61,914 nt of DNA, from IMG/VR virus record IMGVR_UViG_3300050821_005615, positions 1 through 61,914 of that record. One strand, given 5' to 3'. The stretch is from a virus. How positions within the stretch are numbered: position 1 is the first letter of the stretch; every line of letters starts with the position of its first letter. The translations under genes and the position numbers were made by a program. The notes below the pieces were generated by a model. It was not told where the DNA came from. It worked only from the letters and a program-made list of their open reading frames with translations, and did not search any database. This document shows, piece after piece, positions 4,176-46,570 of the stretch.

Positions 4176-5261
4176 CTACGCACGAACTATTGCTTCACGT
4201 TGGCGGTCTAAGGTAATGCCCTTACCTTCTATATTTTTAGCTGCGTTAAAATCAGCATTATCTTCGTTGCCACATTTTAAGCAGATAAATAACGACTGAC
4301 TGATTCTGTTTTTTGCATCTACATAACCACATTTATTACAAGTTTGTGATGTATGCCTTGCGTTAACTTTTACGCAATTAGTTTTGTATGCAATCATTTC
4401 GCCGAACATTCCCCACCCAGCATCTAAAATATGCTTGCTTAAATTTCCGTTTTTACTCATCCCTGAAACATTCAAATCCTCTATGTAAACCGTATGAAAG
4501 TTTTTGGCAATTTTGGTTGATTCCTTATGCAAAAAATCTTTTCTGATGTTAGCAATTTTATGGTGCAGTAACGATAATTTTTTGCACTGCCTTTTCCAAC
4601 TATTGCTGCCTTTTTTCTTACGTACTAACGACCTGTTTTCAATCCTAAGTTGTCTTTCATATTTTTTAAAATGCTTTGGATTTGCGATAAAATTCCCATT
4701 ACTATCAATGCAAAAATGCGATAATCCCATATCCAAACCAATGACTTGGTTCTCGTCTTTGTTTTGAATATCTTTTACCACATCTGTAACGATAGTTATA
4801 AAATAACCAGTAAGTTCTTTTTTTATTGTTGCCGCTTTGATGTTACCCATTATATGAGCATCTTTAAACATTTTTACCTTGCCAATCTTTGGCAGATTTA
4901 TATTATTAACACTTAATTTTATTATTCCGGAGTTTTGTTTAAATAAAATCGATTTATAATACCTTTTATTAGCCCACTTTGGAAATCCAGCTCCTTTAAA
5001 AAATCTATTATATGAGTTATCTAATCTTTCAATGACGTTTTGTAATGACTGGGCTGGTACATCAGCAATCCAATCTATATTTTTTATTGTCGTTAATTGT
5101 TTCATTAACTCAAACTTACCAACCGATTCTTGTTTATTTTTCCACGCCTCAATTCTAATTTCCAACGCCATATTATACACAAAACGGCACGTACCAATCC
5201 AGTTGTCGATTCGGATTTGCTGCGATTTTGTTAATATTAATTTGCGTTTATATGTTAGCAT
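4176..5261 (-). CDS. tnpB: IS200/IS605-family TnpB RNA-guided nuclease, apparently intact
   Basis: The 361-aa product has the full TnpB layout. It has an N-terminal RHH/WED-type region (SQQIRIDNWIGTCRFVYN), a three-part RuvC nuclease with Asp177 (VIGLDMG), Glu261 (VYIEDLNVSGM) and Asp337 (NADFNAAKNI), and a zinc ribbon with Cys308, Cys311, Cys327 and Cys330. It ends with the usual TLDRQREAIVRA tail. TnpB proteins are RNA-guided DNA nucleases whose guide RNA is made from the 3' part of the gene and the sequence just beyond. No TnpA transposase lies beside it, and phage genes abut both sides (18 bases upstream, 54 downstream). AAAAT-CCG-ATTTT at 4158-4170 may be part of the guide-RNA end. Confidence 0.93.
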   Translation of the reverse strand: MLTYKRKLILTKSQQIRIDNWIGTCRFVYNMALEIRIEAWKNKQESVGKFELMKQLTTIKNIDWIADVPAQSLQNVIERLDNSYNRFFKGAGFPKWANKRYYKSILFKQNSGIIKLSVNNINLPKIGKVKMFKDAHIMGNIKAATIKKELTGYFITIVTDVVKDIQNKDENQVIGLDMGLSHFCIDSNGNFIANPKHFKKYERQLRIENRSLVRKKKGSNSWKRQCKKLSLLHHKIANIRKDFLHKESTKIAKNFHTVYIEDLNVSGMSKNGNLSKHILDAGWGMFGEMIAYKTNCVKVNARHTSQTCNKCGYVDAKNRISQSLFICLKCGNEDNADFNAAKNIEGKGITLDRQREAIVRA

Positions 5262-5279: not shown

Positions 5280-5663
5280 TTACTTTTCATTGGTGGTTAT
5301 TTTTGATAGTTTATAAATAATCCATGCTGCGAAGTCATCTTGTATTTTAACTGCTTTTTCAACAGGAAAATTATGTGCGCCAGTTCCAGTTAAGTTGCCC
5401 CAGCCTCTTATCGTGATGAACAACTTGCCATTGTTTTTTATTTCAATGCCCTTAAGTGAAAGTTTAAGTTCATCTATCGGTTCATGCTTATTTGAATTAA
5501 GGGATTTTACAACCTTGTCTTGTAGTTCCAAACATCCCTTAGTATATTCTCCTTTATCATCAAATTCACTTTCAAACTGAAAAACAAAATTACCGTTAGC
5601 ATCATATATCCAACTTCCGTATTTTGGCTTATGAAATGGTTGTTTATAAAAAGATAATTCCAT
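5280..5663 (-). CDS. Unknown 127-aa protein of phage type
   Basis: The sequence reads like a small beta-rich protein: SWIYDANGNFVFQFE in the N-terminal third and IRGWGNLTGTGAHNF followed by a helix (EKAVKIQDDFAAWIIYKL) at the C-terminus. Similar RGWGxLTGxG proteins occur in phages without a known role. It lies just upstream of tnpB. Confidence 0.6.
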   Translation of the reverse strand: MELSFYKQPFHKPKYGSWIYDANGNFVFQFESEFDDKGEYTKGCLELQDKVVKSLNSNKHEPIDELKLSLKGIEIKNNGKLFITIRGWGNLTGTGAHNFPVEKAVKIQDDFAAWIIYKLSKITTNEK

Positions 5664-5670
5664 TGTTGTT

Positions 5671-5904
5671 TTATTTTAAGTATTCATCAATAGTTTTTTG
5701 TGCAAGTTTTATAAGTTCCAAAGGATTCCCGTCAGGGTGCATAGCGGCTACCTTTTCCAACGCCTCCAATAAAGGCTTACCATCCTTCCTACCCATTTCA
5801 TGCCCATCAATAAACCCATCCCTTCTTACAGGTGAGCATAGTCCTTTTTGCTGCATCCTTCTATCGTATAGGTTAGCGGCGTGGATTGTTTTTTGGTCGG
5901 GCAT
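5671..5904 (-). CDS. Unknown 77-aa protein
   Basis: A compact helical protein (ATG at 5904) containing YDRRMQQKGLCSPVRRDGFIDGHEMGRKDGK followed by a C-terminal helix. The paired Arg-rich and His/Glu residues are suggestive but match no family I know. It is spaced 7 bases from its neighbour on each side. Confidence 0.6.
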   Translation of the reverse strand: MPDQKTIHAANLYDRRMQQKGLCSPVRRDGFIDGHEMGRKDGKPLLEALEKVAAMHPDGNPLELIKLAQKTIDEYLK

Positions 5905-8603: not shown

Positions 8604-8831
8604 TCAAATAATTATTTTACGTGATATATTTATTAATTCATCTTGCGTAAGGTAAGATGGAATATCATTATGCATCCTTAAAATAGCAGTAAAATATCCA
8701 ATTAATTCATCTTTATTAAACATCTCAAAAGCATCTTTACTAAGTGTGTTATAAATATCCTTACATTTATCTAAAAACTCACCTTCTGAAACTTCCTTCC
8801 TAACACCTTCTTCATATAAATAATAATTCAT
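8604..8831 (-). CDS. Unknown 75-aa acidic helical protein
   Basis: A short, mostly helical acidic protein starting MNYYLYEEGVRKEVSEGEF. No motif recognised. It is the first minus-strand gene downstream of the structured, gene-free block at 8832-9607, and its leader would begin right after the last RNA stem. Confidence 0.55.
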   Translation of the reverse strand: MNYYLYEEGVRKEVSEGEFLDKCKDIYNTLSKDAFEMFNKDELIGYFTAILRMHNDIPSYLTQDELINISRKIII

Positions 8832-8859
8832 TGTTTTATGTATTTTATTTAAAAGTTAA

Positions 8860-9095
8860 AAAAGTAAAGCACCTTTAGTATGACAGGATTTAAGGAATAT
8901 ACTCATAAACATTATCTATGAGAACGCCTATATTACCTGTATGACTTGTTAGTTTTTTATGGTGTCTTTCGCACCTAGGCTGTCTCCCGTTACTGTTATA
9001 CTCTTTCTAAGTTTAGCCCTATGATTTTACATAAATTCTATTGAGTGGGATAATGTGTCTAATTCCACCACATACTTATATGGTGCTTTACTTTT
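8860..9095 (-). ncRNA. RNA domain A (14-bp closing stem, tRNA-like parts)
   Basis: GGTGCTTTACTTTT (9082-9095) pairs perfectly with 8860-8873. Stacked inside are CATACT/AGTATG (9071-9076 with 8877-8882) and CCTGT/ACAGG (8936-8940 with 8883-8887), the latter capped by CTCATA/TATGAG. Read on the minus strand, the 6-bp stem, TGGTGGAATTAGACAC (like a tRNA-Leu D arm) and the contiguous second stem mimic tRNA order, but the loop of the last arm is about 48 nt. GGTG/CACC (8961-8975) adds a further hairpin. Confidence 0.5.
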
Positions 9096-9100
9096 AAAAA

Positions 9101-9241
9101 TTAAGTGCATTGGTAAACCAATTGAACCCGGCAACTATAAATTGGCATAGCGTTTTATTCTCATTTTTATATCAACGCTGACCTCTCGCACGAGGTTATT
9201 ACCGCATAGTAATTTTATTAACTACTTACCAATACACTTAA
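9101..9241 (-). ncRNA. RNA domain B (16-bp closing stem)
   Basis: Bases 9101-9116 pair with 9226-9241 over 16 bp with one C-A opposition on the plus strand, which becomes a G-U wobble on the minus strand. The enclosed 109 bases contain CCTC/GAGG (around 9182-9195), a GCGTT/AACGC stem and a CCAATT/AATTGG stem around a GGGTTCAA run that resembles a tRNA T loop. Confidence 0.5.
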
Positions 9242-9247
9242 AGAAAG

Positions 9248-9333
9248 TTTGTGTTTAATTTTCGGTCAGAAGCGTTTGTTGAGTATCACAACAATTCTTA
9301 GTATTCGTCAACCTCCTACACACTAAACACAAA
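9248..9333 (-). ncRNA. RNA domain C (10-bp closing stem)
   Basis: TTTGTGTTTA (9248-9257) pairs perfectly with TAAACACAAA (9324-9333). Inside is a TGTTG/CAACA hairpin. It sits directly between domain B and the tRNA-like minihelix, with 6 and 4 bases of linker. Confidence 0.5.
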
Positions 9334-9337
9334 TTGT

Positions 9338-9380
9338 CAGGGTAGTTGGAATCGAACCAACCGAAGAACCTGCTACCCTG
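9338..9380 (-). ncRNA. tRNA-like minihelix (acceptor stem plus T arm)
   Basis: On the minus strand a 7-bp stem CAGGGTA/TACCCTG encloses a 12-base linker and then a perfect T arm: GTTGG, loop TTCGATT, CCAAC. The T stem runs directly into the 3' acceptor strand and an A follows as a possible discriminator base. No D arm or anticodon arm fits in the 43 bases, and extending upstream gives no cloverleaf, so it is not a normal tRNA. Confidence 0.55.
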
Positions 9381-9607
9381 TGGCGGCTTGCCTTTCATTA
9401 CGAGTCTGGCTACTTATTATAAAGGTTTAATTTAATGGAGGTGAAAACATATTTATTTCACTTATAAAATTGCATCCACAAATCAATATTCCCTTTGAGC
9501 CCTTTACGAAGGAGACCGATGATTACCCCTATGTACACTTAGGCATCGCTGCAAACCCCCTATCTGTTGGTTTTCTAAAAACCATAAATATATTCAATAC
9601 AAAGAAC

Positions 9608-9790
9608 CTATTCTCCTACATATTCATTTTCAACTGGTTCTTCACTTTCTTCTCCCAATACCCAACGTAAAGCAGCCTCTACACCCTCTTCGTAAGACAT
9701 TCCTTTTACATCCGTGTTACCTTCTGATGTCCACGATTGCGCTTTGTACATTTGGTCTTCTATTTCTTTTTTGCTTTTTAGTACTGACAT
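9608..9790 (-). CDS. Unknown 60-aa acidic protein
   Basis: Begins MSVLKSKKEIEDQMYKAQSW and ends in an acidic tail (GEESEEPVENEYVGE). The middle SYEEGVEAALRWVLGE looks helical. No family recognised. Its stop is 2 bases from the edge of the structured RNA block, so the RNA could be processed from or share the same transcript. Confidence 0.6.
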   Translation of the reverse strand: MSVLKSKKEIEDQMYKAQSWTSEGNTDVKGMSYEEGVEAALRWVLGEESEEPVENEYVGE

Positions 9791-9793
9791 TGT

Positions 9794-10417
9794 TTATGTA
9801 TTTATTGTTTTTGAAATTAATTTTGATTGAACAAATTTTAATTTTTCACGATAATGAATCAAAAGTTCTTTTAAATCCGATTGTGTAAACTTAAATGTTA
9901 GTCTTGCCTGTTCATCTAAATATTCAGTTATTCCTTTTCGTTCTGCTTCTAAAGCATTTTTAAATGGTGCTGTATCTGTTTCGTGCTTTGAGTTACAAAA
10001 CCCACATTGCGGACGGCAGTTATCTTCTTCGTAACGGGTTGCCATGTTGGCTCTTGAAGTATAATGACCGTTTTGTATATGCTTCCAAAATATTTTATTA
10101 GAACACGTAAAGCATTTTACCACGCCTTCACTATCCGCATATTTTAACCTTATATACTTAGAAAAAACATCATCCAAATCATTCATTAAGTAACTTAATC
10201 CAGTTTGGGCAACCACTTTTGTTTGTAGTTCTTTATCTTGTCCCCGTCCTAATTTCCTTATAGATGATATTTGGGATTGTTTTTGATTATGTTTTTTTAT
10301 TTTTTCCTGTAACATTTCGGGCTTACAAAACCTACTATACCCTTGAAAACCAATGTCAGGATAGTTATCGCATTTTCCGCACTTGCATTTTTTACGTATA
10401 ATACTACTGTATGCCAT
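9794..10417 (-). CDS. ninG: NinG/Rap-like recombination nuclease
   Basis: The 207-aa product starts with a Cys cluster (Cys11, Cys13, Cys16). Its core has Cys102-x2-Cys105, His113 and His118 in WKHIQNGHYTSR, and RPQCGFCNSKH with Cys138 and Cys141, matching the lambda NinG family. NinG (Rap) is a structure-specific endonuclease that promotes RecBCD-independent recombination and resolves branched DNA. The following gene starts at the same base (10417) where it begins, so the operon is tightly packed. Confidence 0.85.
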   Translation of the reverse strand: MAYSSIIRKKCKCGKCDNYPDIGFQGYSRFCKPEMLQEKIKKHNQKQSQISSIRKLGRGQDKELQTKVVAQTGLSYLMNDLDDVFSKYIRLKYADSEGVVKCFTCSNKIFWKHIQNGHYTSRANMATRYEEDNCRPQCGFCNSKHETDTAPFKNALEAERKGITEYLDEQARLTFKFTQSDLKELLIHYREKLKFVQSKLISKTINT

Positions 10418-12785: not shown

Positions 12786-13178
12786 ATGTCAAAACGTAAA
12801 AACCCCGATACAAGCAATGAAGCATATCGTTCTATTACGCCGGATATGCTTTCAGATATTTACCAAAAAATATTAAAGGCACTTGAAAGGTTAGGTAATG
12901 CAAGTGGGCAACAAATAGCTATGTACCTTACTTTGGATGACAATAAAATTAGCCGCCGATTGAAAGAAATGGAAGGCTTAGGATTAATTTATAATACTGG
13001 ATTACGTACACCAACAAAAAGTGGGCGAAGTGCCTTCCAATGGGCTTTAAAAAGCACAGGAATAAAACCAGTAACTAAACAGGTTGATTATAGTAAAAAA
13101 ATAGAAACGGCTGCGGATATAGCATCTAATATAATCAACCAAACTGCACCTAAATACAAAGAACAACAACTATTTTGA
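12786..13178 (+). CDS. Winged-helix DNA-binding protein
   Basis: The 130-aa product contains LSDIYQKILKALERLGNASGQQIAMYLTLD followed by DNKISRRLKEMEGLGLIYNTG, a clear winged helix-turn-helix with the recognition helix at ISRRLKEME. A basic C-terminal tail follows. Probably a regulator or replication-accessory protein in the early operon. Confidence 0.7.
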   Translation: MSKRKNPDTSNEAYRSITPDMLSDIYQKILKALERLGNASGQQIAMYLTLDDNKISRRLKEMEGLGLIYNTGLRTPTKSGRSAFQWALKSTGIKPVTKQVDYSKKIETAADIASNIINQTAPKYKEQQLF

Positions 13179-13220
13179 TTTTGGATAAGTACATACAATC
13201 AGCTATAATAGGTTAAAATT

Positions 13221-13496
13221 ATGCCCAAACAAATACTATTAAACAACTTAGAATATTTACGTAAATCAAATGGTTTTACATCAGGTAAAATGGATGTTAT
13301 AATGGGTTATAAAAGTAAGTTATATGACCATATTAAAAATGATGGTTTATATCCAACTACAAAAGCACTAAAAAAAGTTTTCGATAATTTTAAAATATCT
13401 ATAAATGCTTTATGCCGTATTGATATAAAAAAGCAAGATGCAACCAAAATAAGAAAGGAATATAACTCAATACAGGCACTTTTAAAACAAAAATAA
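13221..13496 (+). CDS. XRE/HTH-like small protein
   Basis: The 91-aa product starts with LLNNLEYLRKSNGFTSGKMDVIMGYKSKLYDHI and continues LYPTTKALKKVFDNFKISINALCRIDI, the layout of a lambda-repressor-like HTH domain (helix 2 and 3 around SGKMDVIMGYKS) without a partner domain. A role in regulation is likely but unproven. Confidence 0.6.
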   Translation: MPKQILLNNLEYLRKSNGFTSGKMDVIMGYKSKLYDHIKNDGLYPTTKALKKVFDNFKISINALCRIDIKKQDATKIRKEYNSIQALLKQK

Positions 13497-13537
13497 TTGA
13501 CACCACTTCAAATATATATTCACTTAGAGGAACGATA

Positions 13538-13750
13538 ATGGAAAAGTGTAAATACGAATTATGTACCAGACGTAATGGTTATAAATATTCATTCGTAACT
13601 ACTACACGAAATACAGAAGAATGCATTAATATTTTACTCGAAAAGGCTTATTTATTACCAGACGGATATAAGTCATATAAAATATATAAAACTGTTAATG
13701 GTATTCGTGAATTAATAGTTTACGGTAAAGGACGAACTTACTTCCGTTGA
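13538..13750 (+). CDS. Unknown 70-aa protein
   Basis: A small basic, Tyr-rich protein (CKYELCTRRNGYKYSFVTTT) with a likely beta-alpha-beta pattern. No family recognised. The stop is followed 9 bases later by a promoter for the structured leader. Confidence 0.55.
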   Translation: MEKCKYELCTRRNGYKYSFVTTTRNTEECINILLEKAYLLPDGYKSYKIYKTVNGIRELIVYGKGRTYFR

Positions 13751-13759
13751 AAAAATATA

Positions 13760-13790
13760 TTTGCACAATTAATAATAATTACTACTTTTA
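13760..13790 (+). promoter_or_regulatory. Promoter for the structured leader (TTTG-N19-TACTTTTA)
   Basis: TTTG at 13760-13763 and TACTTTTA at 13783-13790 are separated by exactly 19 bases, the Bacteroidota primary-sigma geometry. Transcription should start near 13797, at the left edge of the structured leader. The same TTTG-N19-TACTTTTA arrangement recurs at 17435-17466. Confidence 0.65.
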
Positions 13791-13813
13791 TACCGCATAA
13801 TCATACATTACAA

Positions 13814-13843
13814 ATGAATAATCAATATTTATTTTCGACTTAA
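13814..13843 (+). CDS. Possible nine-codon leader peptide
   Basis: ATG at 13814 opens MNNQYLFST and stops with TAA at 13841-13843, between arm a and arm b of the leader RNA. Its start codon lies inside arm a, so a ribosome here would break the a-c pairing. There is no run of one amino acid, so classic amino-acid attenuation is not indicated. Confidence 0.3.
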   Translation: MNNQYLFST

Positions 13844-13848
13844 ATACG

Positions 13849-13941
13849 GGCTATCCCCTTTGCTGTTATCGTTCAAACGGTACGTTTACGTGCCACCATT
13901 TGTAAACTGATTATGCAGCAGCAGGGGGATAGTCTTTTTTT
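13849..13941 (+). terminator. Terminator of the structured leader
   Basis: GGCTATCCCC (13849-13858) pairs with GGGGATAGTC (13925-13934) including one G-U, GCTG/CAGC extends the stem inward, and TTTTTTT follows at 13935-13941. The long internal segment makes it a leader-type terminator that could be conditional. Confidence 0.65.
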
Positions 13942-46324: not shown

Positions 46325-46468
46325 AGTTTCTCTTTCAATTTTTTCCTTAATGGCTTTATCCGAAAATTTTCCCAGTTTACCGTCCGTTTTTTCTATGTGT
46401 TCAACGAGCATTGAATGAGTTTCATTGCTTATGGCAATACATTTTGTTTGTTCGATTTTCTTAGACAT
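46307..46468 (-). CDS. Ribbon-helix-helix-like regulator on opposite strand (53 aa)
   Basis: On the minus strand, ATG 46466-46468 opens SKKIEQTKCIAISNETHSM followed by LVEHIEKTDGKLGKFSDKA and a Lys/Glu-rich tail. The order strand, then two helices (SNETHSMLVEHIEK, GKFSDKAIKEKI) matches an Arc/CopG-type RHH DNA-binding protein. It is the only minus-strand gene in the late block and is divergent from the copy-2 late promoter, so it may regulate late transcription. Confidence 0.6.
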   Translation of the reverse strand: MSKKIEQTKCIAISNETHSMLVEHIEKTDGKLGKFSDKAIKEKIERETKKQNN

Positions 46469-46492
46469 AAGATGTTAGTATATTTATTTATC

Positions 46493-46545
46493 AAAAATAA
46501 TAAAAATTAATAATTACTTATTGAAAAAATAGAATTTAATTTTAC
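46493..46545 (+). promoter_or_regulatory. Late promoter, copy 2
   Basis: The 22-bp AT-rich box (46493-46514) is identical to that at 25589-25610, and TTTAATTTTAC (46535-46545) follows after the same 20 bases. The scaffold gene starts 25 bases downstream. Between the two blocks the sequences differ, so the shared parts look like true binding sites. Confidence 0.6.
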
Positions 46546-46570
46546 TCACACAACCAAATAAGTATAGATT

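Follow-up and report, generated by a model that had tools for sequence, protein, structure and literature searches.

The question raised by this locus is what a block of about 750 bases free of genes does inside a leftward phage operon. The window, i.e. the whole stretch of DNA analysed (61,914 nucleotides, IMG/VR record IMGVR_UViG_3300050821_005615), is most closely related to podovirus-like phages that infect Bacteroidota. Its portal protein points to Flavobacterium and Cellulophaga phages, its TerL to a phage contig in a Bacteroidia MAG. It comes from a bacterial virus, probably with a host among the Bacteroidota. Phages offer few large structured RNAs, and these are poorly understood; positions 8832-9607 are for now a single-sequence candidate. 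The block probably specifies a functional structured RNA of some kind, acting in trans or in cis; that it is a structured non-coding RNA on the minus strand, co-transcribed with the leftward operon, stable and trans-acting, is a reading whose prospects we judge to be even.

The only large gap in the genome

The 61.9-kb phage record is densely coding: once open reading frames (ORFs) of at least 60 aa are masked, positions 8832-9469 are the sole gap that reaches 300 nt. From there to 9607 the only overlapping ORF is one of 66 aa on the plus strand, which starts with TTG. No minus-strand ORF within 8832-9607 is credible, the longest being 47 aa; the gene-free block described in the initial annotation is thereby upheld. 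Both flanking genes belong to a leftward, minus-strand operon of which a NinG/Rap-like gene is also a member (Table 1), and the block begins directly after the stop codon of the upstream 60-aa gene. The same leftward gene block also contains an IS605-family TnpB-like gene (4176-5261, minus strand).

Table 1 Features of the gene-free block and its neighbourhood (window coordinates; z, fold energy against shuffled sequences).
Feature	Position	Strand	Remarks
Gene-free block, whole candidate RNA region	8832..9607	-	Between two minus-strand genes
Upstream flanking gene, 60 aa, phrog_6680, function unknown	9608..9790	-	
Downstream flanking gene, 75 aa, without family	8604..8831	-	
NinG/Rap-like endonuclease, same leftward operon	9794..10417	-	Pfam NinG 1.2e-13
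5' leader, opening with GGTTCTTTGTATTG (weakly boxA-like) after the upstream stop codon	9383..9607	-	z +1.03, +0.2
Structured core (predicted): minihelix and three tandem domains, each with a long closing stem	8853..9382	-	Fold z, helix tiling
tRNA-like minihelix	9338..9380	-	CAGGGTA-12 nt-GTTGG-TTCGATT-CCAAC-TACCCTG
Domain II, 12-pair closing stem 9333-9322/9259-9248 (G-U counted)	9248..9333	-	z -1.6 alone
Domain III, 16-18-pair closing stem, inner hairpins	9101..9241	-	z -5.3, -4.7
Domain IV, 14-bp perfect closing stem 9095-9082/8873-8860	8853..9102	-	z -4.0, -3.6
GTGGTGGAATTAGACAC, inside domain IV	9055..9071	-	Single occurrence in 1.27 Mb of loci

Architecture, stability and strand

Read 5' to 3' on the minus strand, the block comprises the leader (9607-9383), the minihelix (9380-9338) and domains II, III and IV, with only a few bases between the minihelix and the successive domains. 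All the stems reported in the initial annotation were recovered: the closing stem of domain IV (14 bp perfect; 21 nt at 86%), that of domain III (9241-9226/9116-9101, 16 bp, 18 pairs with its extension), the 12 pairs of domain II and the minihelix. The tandem arrangement was quantified as the sum of non-overlapping long helices. This statistic was 114 for the minus strand of the block, against maxima of 100.5 in 300 dinucleotide shuffles and 109 over 308 other same-sized segments of the window, so that the tiling was matched by none of the shuffles (0/300) and none of the segments (0/308).

The minimum free energy of the block was also lower than that of shuffled sequences (z -4.6 on the minus and -5.05 on the plus strand, 0/20 shuffles as stable on each), and its minus strand ranked second by z among 48 sampled 776-nt segments. 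Stability above that of shuffled sequence, a general test for structured RNAs, was found in the minus-strand core 8853-9382 (z -4.33, 0/200 shuffles as stable; tiling 0/300), in domain III (z -4.7 to -5.3, no shuffle equally stable) and in domain IV (z -3.6 to -4.0). The structure of the 225-nt leader was not beyond chance (z +1.03 in 200 shuffles; +0.2), and the structural claim is therefore confined to the core. The tandem stems are more regular than chance would produce, and a minus-strand RNA fold explains them best.

The energy of the fold relative to shuffles is about equal on both strands and does not choose between them. The minus strand is favoured because of the orientation of the flanking genes, the longest stem, which is uninterrupted through G-U pairing, and the polarity of the T-loop. 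This stem is unbroken on the minus strand only: one minus-strand G-U pair of domain III becomes an A-C mismatch on the plus strand, in agreement with the earlier claim that the 16-bp stem is G-U compatible on the minus strand alone. Likewise, the loop of the minihelix reads TTCGATT (T-loop) on the minus strand only. The multi-domain minus-strand RNA initially proposed for the whole block is thus sustained in part, by the tandem stems, the T-loop and the gene orientation, but not over its 5' 225 nt, which carry no structural signal.

The tRNA-like minihelix

The minihelix combines a 7-bp acceptor (CAGGGTA/TACCCTG), a 12-nt linker, a 5-bp T-stem (GTTGG/CCAAC) and a consensus T-loop, without D arm, anticodon arm or encoded CCA. 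A full tRNA was rejected, as the acceptor and T arms are present and the D and anticodon arms absent; ARAGORN found no tRNA, tmRNA or tag in the window, and a weak tRNA-Sec score (18.5 bits, E 0.55) was far under the gathering score of 47 bits. Shuffled sequence totalling 3.7 Mb contained three minihelices with 12/12 pairs (G-U allowed), so that about 0.001 would be expected in the block, both strands included. An equivalent scan of related and candidate contigs, several hundred kilobases in all, gave one further match, with a longer linker. Low-scoring BLASTN matches of the minihelix corresponded to the 3' halves of phage tRNAs. A rod hairpin is favoured over the T-arm form by 4.7 kcal/mol (-18.6 vs -13.9 kcal/mol) in the nearest-neighbour model, which omits the tertiary contacts of the T-loop.

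The element GTGGTGGAATTAGACAC of domain IV resembles a bacterial tRNA-Leu D-arm with a 3-nt deletion. Next to it are an acceptor-like helix of 6 bp (AGTATG/CATACT) and, contiguous on the 3' side, a helix of 5 bp (ACAGG/CCTGT).

Search for homologues

BLASTN found no homologue of the block in GenBank phages or PLSDB plasmids. Viral contigs gathered through NinG, primase, TerL, portal, a TerL alignment and the flanking genes brought in relatives that are 41-83% identical in TerL and 55-63% in portal. No homologue came from these or from genome contigs, and the block sequence was absent from the longer relative records searched. In 395 Bacteroidia genomes, BLASTN gave seven short matches that upon inspection were due to chance, none credible, and a covariance model (R1) gave no match. 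Run on 57 sources of related and candidate contigs, R1, a single-sequence build which reaches near relatives only, found the window itself as the only credible match. Two DNA patterns gave three matches, all set aside: two are coding coincidences (L069, L070) and the third, in a phage tRNA array (L107), is compatible with chance. Large gaps are present in relatives (L002 8488-9023, L045 5479-6211, L047 12987-13724), but the sequence and stems of the window are not shared by them. Since no homologue was found in these records, from which very close relatives may be missing, the fold is a single-sequence model.

Comparison with known RNA families

The initial annotation had suggested a link with GOLLD or ROOL, which is not supported, and a check for tmRNA; none of the three models reports the region, even at relaxed thresholds. 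Across the window every Rfam family stayed below its gathering score, and nothing credible emerged when the block was scanned with relaxed settings. The ROOL model (RF03087, gathering 99.1 bits) had no match at E up to 10, nor in whole-window or local Rfam scans; this model matched no control genome either, so that the negative is weaker and leans on the Rfam scans too. The GOLLD model (RF02032; conserved 3' region, gathering 150 bits) had no match in the block. Its sole signal, of 17.4 bits, falls in coding DNA (1847-2064), and sub-threshold matches were likewise seen in several control genomes. The tmRNA model (RF00023) was silent at E up to 10. In the open-access literature searched, no similar RNA is described.

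ROOL and GOLLD build RNA-only cages and are often near tRNA islands; their lengths are 659 nt for the ROOL studied and more than 800 nt for many GOLLD RNAs (PMC12286853). The candidate is like ROOL in being a large non-protein-coding RNA of phages or prophages with a tRNA association (PMC12286853), and unlike it in its predicted architecture, where a tRNA-like minihelix is followed by separate domains each closed by a stem, and in the silence of the model. It shares size class and phage source with GOLLD, and differs in lacking a model match; a tRNA within or beside the RNA, a common but not universal GOLLD feature, is absent from the window, which has the minihelix only. The GOLLD/ROOL comparison is one of size and setting only, and any role of the GOLLD or ROOL kind is an inference.

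Like tmRNA, the candidate joins a tRNA-like acceptor and T-arm to a large RNA body, without a D-stem; unlike tmRNA, its 5' acceptor strand lies 12 nt from the T-arm, and there is no encoded CCA and no tag. With phage tRNAs and tRNA-Sec (RF00005, RF01852) it has in common the acceptor and T-arm geometry and the T-loop consensus, and it differs from them by the missing D and anticodon arms and the low score. Full-length tRNA (ARAGORN), tmRNA (Rfam), coding gene (ORF lengths) and replication origin (GC skew, iterons) were each rejected.

Proposed maturation and alternative explanations

The minus-strand RNA reading is based on the sole large gap, the helix tiling, the z of the core, the rarity of the minihelix, the operon orientation and the absence of iteron repeats; against it are the lack of a homologue and with it of covariation, the equal folding of the plus strand, the unstructured 5' third, the preference for the rod and the lack of an Rfam match. 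In this model, the block would be transcribed from the minus strand together with the NinG-like and 60-aa genes upstream and the 75-aa gene downstream, and the core (approximately 9382 to 8853) would fold as a chain of independent domains, the minihelix followed by the three stem-closed domains. An acceptor joined to a T-arm is the minimal substrate shape for bacterial RNase P. The minihelix may accordingly present the minimal shape recognised by RNase P on its 5' side and by RNase Z on its 3' side, and a cut at this point would release the core from the mRNA upstream as a stable trans-acting RNA of about 480-530 nt; such RNase P/Z processing is possible, if doubtful. It is unlikely that the candidate represents a new class of large phage RNA, i.e. 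a string of stem-closed domains headed by a tRNA-derived processing module, which the RNase P and RNase Z of the host would mature and which might act as a scaffold or as a tRNA decoy in the infected cell. If true, the RNA would add a class similar in size to GOLLD and ROOL but unrelated to them, with a tRNA-like processing module of its own, and would offer a simple test of whether the tRNA enzymes of the host are used by phages to excise long non-coding RNAs from operons.

Foremost among the alternatives, and somewhat unlikely in our estimate, is a cis-acting structured spacer in a polycistronic mRNA with no trans role, which would shield, separate or time the neighbouring genes, as processing or stability punctuation or as a long 5' leader of the 75-aa gene. 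The intra-operon site, with no terminator-like site found on the minus strand, agrees with such a spacer, as does the position of its end about 20-30 nt ahead of the next start codon, domain IV closing just upstream; the tRNA-like element would be a natural processing site, given the established biology of RNase P and RNase Z. However, about 530 nt and four domains are more than is usual for a cis element, and no riboswitch or leader family matched.

The block might instead be remnant DNA, the ruins of a decayed tRNA cluster or of genes without RNA function, which we consider distinctly unlikely. The T-arm without D or anticodon arm, the tRNA-Leu-like D-arm fragment, the lack of homologues and the tRNA array with odd tRNAs on at least one further phage contig whose composition is similar (L107) are consistent with this origin, but decay would not leave three tandem, near-perfect long-range stems of 12-18 bp. 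More improbable is a DNA-level element, namely a replication origin, a recombination hot spot or nested miniature inverted-repeat elements: the inverted repeats are near-perfect at the DNA level, folding is strand-neutral and the NinG/Rap recombination endonuclease is nearby, whereas iterons and direct-repeat arrays were not found in the block, the GC skew turns at about 10.9-11.0 kb, away from it, the genome has no second copy of it, and a T-loop consensus would be unexpected. A divergent, nanocage-forming GOLLD- or ROOL-type RNA, for which size class, phage source and tRNA link (PMC12286853) would speak, is highly improbable, with both models silent on the region at E up to 10, the GOLLD signal elsewhere in coding DNA and no full tRNA in the window.

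Further possibly structured gaps in the window and in other phages

Two smaller gaps of the window (13751-13941 and 46339-46570) coincide in part with 150-nt folds of unusual stability (z about -3.4 on the plus and -3.2 on the minus strand), possibly terminators or small RNAs. Some of the large gaps in relatives also seem to be structured. A 733-nt gap in the closest long relative by TerL (L045, record G011) contains, at 5535-5680, the helices AGCGTGGG/CCCACGCT, CTTGGGAG/CTCCCAAG and TTGTTCGA/TCGAACAA, which could be arranged as a large pseudoknot. In another relative (L047, record G012), the 738-nt gap upstream of the primase operon (12987-13724) carries the boxA-like sequences AAGTTCTTTGAATC and AAGTTCTTTAACATAG, each behind a strong hairpin, the second segment having a z of -2.95. 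The boxA AGTTCTTTRA is over-represented in related phages between genes, with 5 occurrences in 26 kb of gaps against 8 elsewhere; the window carries GGTTCTTTGT instead, and boxA-led transcription of the block was left as a weak lead. The phage tRNA array of L107 (5400-7015) lies behind the boxA-like AGTTCTTTGAAATATTG and includes unusual tRNAs missed by ARAGORN, in one of which the 3' acceptor can pair with its own variable arm and not with the 5' acceptor strand.

Flavobacterium elemo phages have a structured block of about 140 nt right after tRNA-Met (L108, NC_055855.1, 20701-20850; also L109 and L110), which terminates in a hairpin and a U-run. It is like the candidate in being a structured non-coding flavophage block beside a tRNA and close to the primase operon, and unlike it in its sequence, its length, its location on the primase strand and its U-run after the hairpin. 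Among the three variants, only four positions of this block differ, the whole 320-nt gap being about 85% identical, and two of the changes preserve a base pair (GC to GU, UG to UA).
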